Shown here one piece after another: positions 61,415 through 62,805 of a stretch of 64,000 nucleotides of DNA (position 1 is its first letter; every line of letters begins with the position of its first letter). The notes beneath the pieces are model-generated. The model saw only the letters and a list, made by a program, of their open reading frames with translations, did not search any database and was not told the origin of the DNA. This DNA is from Georgenia ruanii. Lineage in GTDB: Bacteria > Actinomycetota > Actinomycetes > Actinomycetales > Actinomycetaceae. The stretch is taken from the NCBI RefSeq assembly GCF_009193175.1, contig NZ_VUKE01000010.1, positions 1-64,000 of the forward strand. Reading direction: 5' to 3'. A program made the position numbers and the translations under genes.

Positions 61415-61448
61415 GAGGGCGGCCGACCCCCTCGGGTCGGCCGCCCTC
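61415..61448 (-). terminator. 15-bp perfect hairpin after the GRFDEG repeat gene
   Basis: GAGGGCGGCCGACCC (61415-61429) and GGGTCGGCCGCCCTC (61434-61448) are perfect arms with a 4-base loop, 22 bp after the stop of the leftward gene ending at 61471. No T-run follows, as is common for actinobacterial terminators. It should keep that gene apart from livK. Confidence 0.7.
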
Positions 61449-61470: not shown

Positions 61471-61773
61471 TCAGGTCAGCGGCTGCCCGGGTACGTCATC
61501 GGTCGCCTGCCCCTCGTCGAAGCGCCCCCGGACGTCCTCCTCGGCGTCGAGGGTGGCGTCGGTCGCCTGCCCCTCGTCGAAGCGGCCGTGGATCCCCTCC
61601 TCCGCGTCGAGGGTCACGTCGGCGGCCACGCCCTCGTCGAAGCGGCCGTGCACCGCCTCCTCGGCGTCGAGAGTGGCGTCGGCCGCCTCGCCCTCGTCGT
61701 ACCGGCCGTGGAGGCCCTCCTCGGTCTCGCGGTCCACCGGGTCCTGCCCGCCGGTCATGGGAGATTCGCTCAT
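61471..61773 (-). CDS. Small acidic protein of tandem 20-residue GRFDEG repeats
   Basis: A 100-residue, very acidic protein without cysteine, signal peptide or membrane segment. After a 21-residue lead it consists of 3.5 repeats of the form (H/R)GR(F/Y)DEGxA(A/T)D(A/V)TLDAEExx: HGRYDEGEAADATLDAEEAV, HGRFDEGVAADVTLDAEEGI, HGRFDEGQATDATLDAEEDV and RGRFDEGQATD. The repeats are also clear in the DNA, period 60 bp. I know no assigned function. The gene lies 125 bp from a second protein with the same core motif. The GAAGGGC site before ATG 61773 is moderate. Confidence 0.75.
   Translation of the reverse strand: MSESPMTGGQDPVDRETEEGLHGRYDEGEAADATLDAEEAVHGRFDEGVAADVTLDAEEGIHGRFDEGQATDATLDAEEDVRGRFDEGQATDDVPGQPLT
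61501..61740. repeat. 60-bp in-frame tandem DNA repeat, four units
   Basis: Units at 61501-61560, 61561-61620, 61621-61680 and 61681-61740 (the last weaker) align without gaps and encode the 20-residue repeats. Changes fall mostly in third codon positions and at a few variable residues, so the array is kept at protein level. Confidence 0.9.
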
Positions 61774-61898
61774 CGCGCGCCCTTCGCCGTCACCTCGTCG
61801 TGGGCTCCGAGTGTCGCGGGCACCGGTGGTCGCCGCAACCGTTTCCGGCGCGCGCCGTCGCGCGGCACGCGGCGAAGCGGTCAGAGCTCTGGGGCCGA

Positions 61899-62225
61899 TC
61901 AGAAGTCCGTCCGGCCGACGTCGGGCTCCTCGGTGGGGGTGGCGCGCTCGCCGTCGTCGAACCGCCCGTGCGGCTGGCGGACCTCCTCGGCGAGCTCGGC
62001 GTCGCTGATCTGGCCCTCGTCGAAGCGGCCCCGGATGGGCTCGTCCGGCGTGGGGGCGCTGGTCCCCGAGCGCTCGCCCTCGTCGAACCGCCCGTGCGGC
62101 TGGCGGACCTCCTCGGCGAGCTCGGCGTCGCTGGCCTGGCCCTCGTCGAAGCGGCCCCGAGAGAGCGTGACGGGGGGCTCGGGTTCGTCAGCGGGAACAG
62201 AGCGGGGGGTGGTGTCGTCACTCAT
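61899..62225 (-). CDS. Small acidic GRFDEGQ-repeat protein, relative of the neighbour
   Basis: A 108-residue acidic protein. Four 21-residue units alternate in two types: RGRFDEGQASDAELAEEV-RQP, then HGRFDEGERSGTSAPTPDEP-I, then RGRFDEGQISDAELAEEV-RQP, and HGRFDDGERATPTEEPD. At DNA level this is a 126-bp repeat (offset between 61945 and 62071). The GR(F)DEG core is that of the gene at 61471, while the rest differs, so the two come from a common repeat with different spacers. ATG 62225 has GGAGGG before it. Function unknown. Confidence 0.75.
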   Translation of the reverse strand: MSDDTTPRSVPADEPEPPVTLSRGRFDEGQASDAELAEEVRQPHGRFDEGERSGTSAPTPDEPIRGRFDEGQISDAELAEEVRQPHGRFDDGERATPTEEPDVGRTDF

Positions 62226-62303
62226 GGCGTCCCTCCGGTCGATCGGAGTGTGCGACTCGCCGTCCCGCCAAGTCTCCCGCTGGTGGCGCCCAGCGGCAAG
62301 ATT

Positions 62304-62345
62304 CGGCGGACGGCGGACGGCGGACGGCGGACGGCGGACGGCGGA
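62304..62345. repeat. Heptanucleotide tandem repeat (CGGCGGA)6
   Basis: Six perfect copies of CGGCGGA in the space between the antitoxin-like gene and the repeat protein gene. It is noncoding and a likely length-variable site. Confidence 0.92.
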
Positions 62346-62397
62346 GACAGGACGACGGCGTGGCCGGAACCCCGACCACGCCGTCGCCGAATGGCGG

Positions 62398-62592
62398 TCA
62401 CTCGTCGCCGATGTGCTGGTCCGCGGCCGTCTGTCCCTTCTCGAGCTGCTCCTCGTACTTGCCGCCGGTGCGCTCGTTGAGGGCGTCCGTGCCGCGCTGC
62501 AGCGCGTCGTCGCTCTTCTCCTCGCCCTTGTCGGTGTTGAGGAAGTCCTTGGCCTTCTCGCCGAGGTCCTTGGCCTTGTCGCCGATGCCCAT
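62398..62592 (-). CDS. MT0933/Rv0909-like antitoxin family protein
   Basis: A 64-residue helical, charged protein: MGIGDKAKDLGEKAKDFLNT, then ALNERTGGKYEEQLEKGQTA. The start MGxxDKAKDL and the block (E/K)RTGGKYxxQLxKxQ recall the MT0933-like antitoxins (Rv0909 type). The Rv0910-type toxin partner is not adjacent, so the protein may not act as an antitoxin here. ATG 62592 has GAAGGGACGAGG before it. Confidence 0.7.
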   Translation of the reverse strand: MGIGDKAKDLGEKAKDFLNTDKGEEKSDDALQRGTDALNERTGGKYEEQLEKGQTAADQHIGDE

Positions 62593-62805
62593 GTCCTCGT
62601 CCCTTCGTCGGCTGCGCACGCCGGCCGGCGCGGCCCTTCCAGGCTCCGTCCGGCCGAGCGGGCCCCGCAACCGCAGGGGAGGGGCCGGGGACCGGCCCTG
62701 GCCCTGGCCGTAGCCCTGGCCCTCCGGCTGCGGGGCTCGCTCCGTTGTCCCGGCCCGTCCGCCGTCGTCCCATCGGCCCCTGCCCGCCCTGGTTAGCCTC
62801 GGGGC

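Follow-up and report, generated by a model that had tools for sequence, protein, structure and literature searches.

Gene Content of the Locus

Near the end of the window, that is, the whole stretch of 64,000 nucleotides that was analyzed, two neighboring minus-strand genes encode small acidic proteins built from short tandem repeats, here called P1 and P2, next to a gene for a member of the PF14013 family. The genes and the associated hairpins are:

61474..61773 (with the stop codon from 61471), minus strand: P1, acidic repeat protein of 100 residues, defined by its open reading frame, Tandem Repeats Finder and core positions
61902..62225 (with the stop codon from 61899), minus strand: P2, acidic A-B-A-B repeat protein of 108 residues, defined in the same way
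62401..62592, minus strand: MT0933_antitox (PF14013) protein of 64 residues, defined by its Pfam match (E 1.8e-11) and synteny
61415..61448, minus strand: strong hairpin 3′ of P1, terminator-like without a U-tract (z -5.75)
62353..62386, minus strand: strong hairpin 3′ of the PF14013 gene, terminator-like without a U-tract (z -3.65), which separates this gene from P2

The flanking genes presumably code for a LivK-like solute-binding protein and an amidase, as recognized from their sequences, and no T-tract terminators were found at the locus.

The P1 array consists of four 20-residue units with the core (H/R)GR(F/Y)DEG at a spacing of 20/20/20, and the cores read, in order, HGRYDEGE, HGRFDEGV, HGRFDEGQ and RGRFDEGQ. 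P2 is arranged in 21-residue units of the AB-AB type, with a core spacing of 21/21/21 and the cores RGRFDEGQ, HGRFDEGE, RGRFDEGQ and HGRFDDGE, the second type being written PHGRFDEGE. At the DNA level, Tandem Repeats Finder located a 60-bp array in P1 (61499-61724, score 284) and one of about 63 bp in P2 (61950-62150, score 212). Open reading frames, core spacing and repeat detection thus confirm the layout described in an earlier note on this DNA, namely two same-strand genes for acidic repeat proteins of 100 and 108 residues, one with a homogeneous 20-residue (60-bp) array and the other with an AB-AB array; cysteine is absent from both proteins, as the note had stated, and so is tryptophan. 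The pI is 4.05 for P1 and 4.25 for P2, with net charges of -17 and -24, respectively. Between the PF14013 gene and P2 lies a perfect 7-bp tandem repeat, CGGCGGA in six copies (62304-62345), across part of which three other Georgenia genomes (G126, G094 and G022) are gapped in the upstream alignment.

The small neighbor, which had been described as antitoxin-like, indeed belongs to PF14013, and its gene is syntenic with the locus in all nine Georgenia species. In two of them the repeat gene starts only 13 nt (G052) or 12 nt (G076) 3′ of the PF14013 stop codon, an operon-like spacing, and the PF14013 gene is likely to be co-regulated with P1 and P2, or to be their partner. The PF14013 protein and the repeat proteins are adjacent, small and acidic and have a promoter-like element in common, and the PF14013 tail, GGK(Y/F)DE, loosely recalls the GR(F/Y)DE of the repeats; however, P1 and P2 have no profile match and the similarity is not significant. 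The idea that the repeat arose from the C-terminal part of the PF14013 protein (GGKYDEQL-KGQ-AADQ) was unsupported (shuffle p 0.25), and hhalign of A1 against the PF14013 orthologs gave a probability of 0.4%. A second PF14013 gene, without the promoter-like element, lies across the amidase and outside the window (G000:C1:64326-64454, minus strand; G000 is the genome of the window).

Coding Capacity and Selection

GC content at the three codon positions is 0.83/0.45/0.95 in P1 and 0.79/0.53/0.94 in P2, as against 0.65/0.84/0.78 in the overlapping plus-strand open reading frame, which indicates coding on the minus strand; a purine-rich stretch resembling a ribosome-binding site precedes each gene (GAAGGG for P1, GGAGGG for P2). 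The orthologs in G. thermotolerans (G126) have 86% (P1) and 89% (P2) identity, and comparison with them yields dN/dS values of 0.27 and 0.24, respectively (Fisher p 9e-4 and 3e-4). As judged from the sequences, both are genuine genes and under purifying selection.

Units 1-3 of P1 differ among themselves with a synonymous divergence of 0.47-0.54 and a dN/dS of 0.24-0.43; thus, this array did not arise recently and its protein sequence is under constraint. Synonymous differences are absent between the two AB copies of P2 (dS = 0), and the P2 array was therefore homogenized recently. A comparison of repeat number between relatives, as proposed in the earlier note, showed that each of the 11 members (six P1, four P2 and one extra P2-type protein) has exactly four cores, with a core defined as [RS][FY]D[EDKQ]G, a pattern set after the sequences had been inspected. 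In these members the cores lie 18 to 25 residues apart, and the N-terminal parts vary from short and acidic to His-rich. A constant core number in a recently homogenized tandem array suggests that selection on valence has held it, in members that share ancestry.

Distribution and History of the Family

The arrays of P1 and P2 share a common origin (hhalign 99%, E 2.5e-19 over 69 columns; protein search 4e-12), and neither protein matched a family in Pfam, NCBIfam or PADLOC, which fits the earlier proposal that proteins with this conserved core make up a family not described before. In PHROGs, phrog_19391 matched P2 weakly (E 5e-4), with no single stretch significant; Rfam gave no match, and a literature search for the motif yielded one paper, on Plasmodium PfEMP1, that contains RFDEGQ. 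TPR repeats ending in GRFDEA (seen in L034 and L043) resemble the GRFDEG of P1 and P2; however, a TPR is a 34-residue helix-turn-helix, while the units here have 20-21 residues, with cores 18-25 apart, almost no predicted helix and no Pfam match.

Repeat genes were found in six of nine Georgenia species and not beyond the genus; the idea that the motif is general in actinobacteria was therefore not upheld. Both genes are present in four genomes (G000, G126, G094 and G022), a single P1-type gene in two (G052 and G076) and none in three; P1 orthologs thus occur in five further Georgenia, and P2 orthologs in G126, G094 and G022. Gene order is reversed in G022, with P1 before P2. The amidase gene is present in all nine genomes, and in the three non-carriers it is adjoined by the PF14013 gene and LivK, the repeat genes being missing. 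In the amidase tree a strongly supported branch separates all carriers from the three non-carriers, so that a single gain or a single loss suffices, in a history drawn from this one gene tree and not from a species tree.

The order sample (396 genomes) contained no family member outside Georgenia, with the own genome as the only carrier. The phylum sample (396 genomes) gave 23 weak matches besides the own genome; those that were translated resemble chance hits or hits to the motif only, and were rejected as relatives, a judgment that leaves out L041, L049, L050, L052 and L054, which are cut by contig ends. The weak family-level matches L011-L013 were likewise set aside, as they look like chance. 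Plasmids (searched with P1), phages (searched with P2) and viral contigs gave no match, and degenerate peptide patterns run against an 84,980-species genome collection led to two confirmed loci, both in Georgenia. P1 and P2 are apparently paralogs in a new, genus-restricted orphan family, as seen by searches that are best for close relatives and that very divergent ones could escape.

G094 carries an extra P2-type paralog at a second locus (L058:9581-9883), between the end of an aconitase gene (L058:9453) and the start of a gene for an NAD-binding oxidoreductase (9902), which begins 18 nt after the repeat gene. Hemerythrin, a GAPDH-like open reading frame and COX1 are found nearby; aconitase and the GAPDH-like frame are what we take them to be from sequence recognition, not from profile search. 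The neighborhood is redox/stress-like. The wider region, L058:1450-13664, comprises COX1, hemerythrin, the GAPDH-like frame, aconitase, the repeat protein, the NAD oxidoreductase and GH15, and is possibly a redox-stress island.

A Conserved Promoter-Like Element

The aligned upstream regions share an element with the pattern GTTGC-N19/20-GANRCT, which occurs three times at the locus:

61807..61840, minus strand: promoter-like element of P1, GGTTGC-N19-GACACTCGG (upstream alignment and genome pattern scan)
62268..62299, minus strand: promoter-like element of P2, TTGC-N19-GAGACTTGG (upstream alignment)
62638..62672, minus strand: promoter-like element of the PF14013 gene, GGTTGC-N20-GAGCCTGGA (upstream alignment; N19 form in other species)

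In each of the nine Georgenia species the element precedes the PF14013 gene; it also precedes P1 in G000, G126 and G022, and P2 in G000, G126 and G094. Some species show slight deviations from it, among them CATGCT in G052 and G076, and GAGCCT with N20 in G000 and G126. The strict pattern GGTTGC-N19-GASACT has six matches in the nine genomes (about 38 Mb), five of them at this locus, with one match for the control. A looser form lies 5′ of the genes for dodecin and for a zinc-type dehydrogenase (both in G000 and G126), of a pyridine-nucleotide disulphide oxidoreductase-like gene (G052, G076 and G022), and of genes for small acidic proteins (G107 and G022). In the dehydrogenase and the disulphide oxidoreductase the ATG follows the CT of the element by 6-7 nt, as in leaderless transcripts. 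Two similar small acidic proteins behind the element (L138 and L152; MSSPNPDEAVG... and MSEQDSGDLTD...) have no Pfam match.

Genome-wide counts of the loose element were not above the reversed control, and the case for a regulon is therefore one of position and conservation, not of counts. Of the 19 sites that lie elsewhere than at the locus, automatic classification placed six in intergenic DNA 5′ of a gene; the background is 5.3% (p ~3e-4), a comparison made with rough gene calls, non-independent orthologous sites and patterns refined on the sites seen. A search for consensus sigma-70 promoters found none. The element may be a sigma-70-type promoter in which GANRCT replaces TANANT, and P1 and P2 seem to be expressed jointly with genes of the stress type.

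Predicted Disorder and Similarity to Hydrophilins

AlphaFold models of P1 and P2 have a mean pLDDT of 58 and 52 and a pTM of 0.12 and 0.10, respectively, with almost no secondary structure, a low confidence that could also stem from alignments only three sequences deep. Charge-hydropathy analysis places both proteins on the disordered side, and the P2 profile matched no PDB chain; P1 and P2 are predicted to be intrinsically disordered.

KGG-repeat proteins of the YciG/Con-10 type are small, hydrophilic, built from repeats and associated with stress; P1 and P2 are like them in size, hydrophilicity, repeats and a putative stress link, but they have a different motif and charge and no Pfam match. 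Hydrophilins are defined by Gly above 6%, GRAVY below -1 and a mean hydrophilicity above 1 (PMC4190154). The repeat proteins contain 9.3-15% Gly, above that limit, with 9-13% in P1 and P2 of the window; GRAVY is -1.28 for P2 and -0.93 for P1, a narrow miss, with -1.09 for the P1 ortholog in G126. Mean hydrophilicity is 0.67 and 0.81 in the window and 1.0 in P2 of G022, and so does not exceed 1, on the Hopp-Woods scale, which may differ from that of PMC4190154. Since one of the three numerical values falls short, the proteins are not filed as hydrophilins. They resemble hydrophilins and LEA-like proteins in being small, above 6% in Gly, very hydrophilic, predicted to be disordered, made of short repeats and placed in a stress-type context, and they differ in matching no Pfam family and in their Hopp-Woods means; hydrophilins are induced by osmotic or dehydration stress, a response that P1 and P2 may or may not have.

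Possible Function

The explanation that we prefer, to which a somewhat less than even chance is given, is that of a stress-linked, tetravalent disordered protein acting in a hydrophilin-like manner. P1 and P2 are probably expressed from the same stress-type promoter class as their PF14013 neighbor and most likely act in the cytoplasm under desiccation, osmotic or redox stress. They would be flexible tetravalent chains, kept soluble and hydrated by the acidic linkers, whose four Arg/Phe(Tyr) cores may bind client proteins or a partner weakly and at several points, so that in action they would be akin to small disordered chaperones or to hydrophilins. That the proteins are induced by stress, bind clients and protect them is what we infer here from sequence and context. 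The earlier hint of a stress link gained independent support from the shared promoter-like element, from the operon-like spacing between the PF14013 and repeat genes of two species, and from the redox/stress context of the third copy in G094; against a stress protein, three of the nine Georgenia species live without the repeat genes.

The main rival, which we regard as unlikely, is a specific tetravalent scaffold whose cores would be short linear motifs, each of them docked to a single folded protein, for which the PF14013 product is a candidate. It would account for a four-fold valence that is constant in 11 of 11 members despite varying linkers and flanks, and for the adjacent PF14013 gene with its operon-like spacing in two species; the same gene, however, persists in the three species without repeat genes. 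A more specific version, rather improbable in our estimate, has the four fixed cores specifically docking a partner (perhaps PF14013) in a stress-induced assembly, under an undescribed, sometimes leaderless, stress sigma-factor regulon that has GTTGC-N19-GANRCT as its promoter. Next after the scaffold, and doubtful, comes a metal buffer, in which acidic repeats and histidines would bind divalent metals for delivery or detoxification. Histidine precedes many cores (HGRFDEG), the N-terminus of the member in G052 and G076 is rich in His (13 and 11 His in the whole protein), and Asp and Glu are abundant, with net charges of -17 to -24 in the window. Yet the pre-core histidine is not conserved, being absent from the P1 cores of G022, G052 and G076, there is no cysteine, and the adjacent LivK-like and amidase genes are not metal genes; the binding of a cation or of nucleic acid by the core, proposed in the earlier note, is unsupported as stated.

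That P1 and P2 are young orphans that have hardly any function or none, are retained by chance and owe their repeats to slippage, is highly improbable: the family is limited to one genus and missing from three of its nine species, and the P2 copies were recently homogenized, but dN/dS is about 0.25, core number is fixed, synteny is kept across divergent species and the promoter-like element is conserved. Hardly to be expected is a toxin-antitoxin unit with the PF14013 protein, in which P1 and P2 would be the toxin or an accessory antitoxin. This idea comes from the family name MT0933_antitox, MT0933 being, as we take it, the CDC1551 name for Rv0909. Rv0909-Rv0910 is a tested toxin-antitoxin pair, and the mycobacterial toxin Rv0910 is a START-type folded protein (PMC2781298). 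A toxin-antitoxin role is unlikely because this tested partner is of the START type, which P1 and P2, predicted to be disordered, do not resemble; moreover, the repeat genes are absent from some species, and a terminator-like hairpin separates the PF14013 gene from P2 here.

Known mechanisms stand, and as small disordered proteins P1 and P2 are ordinary; the interest of the family lies in the four fixed cores and in a possible stress promoter class. It offers a clean case of a disordered repeat family that is confined to one lineage, has a constant number of motifs and can be explained by one gain or loss, and may provide a handle on the roles of PF14013 proteins outside toxin-antitoxin pairs and on the sigma factor behind a possible stress regulon in this group.
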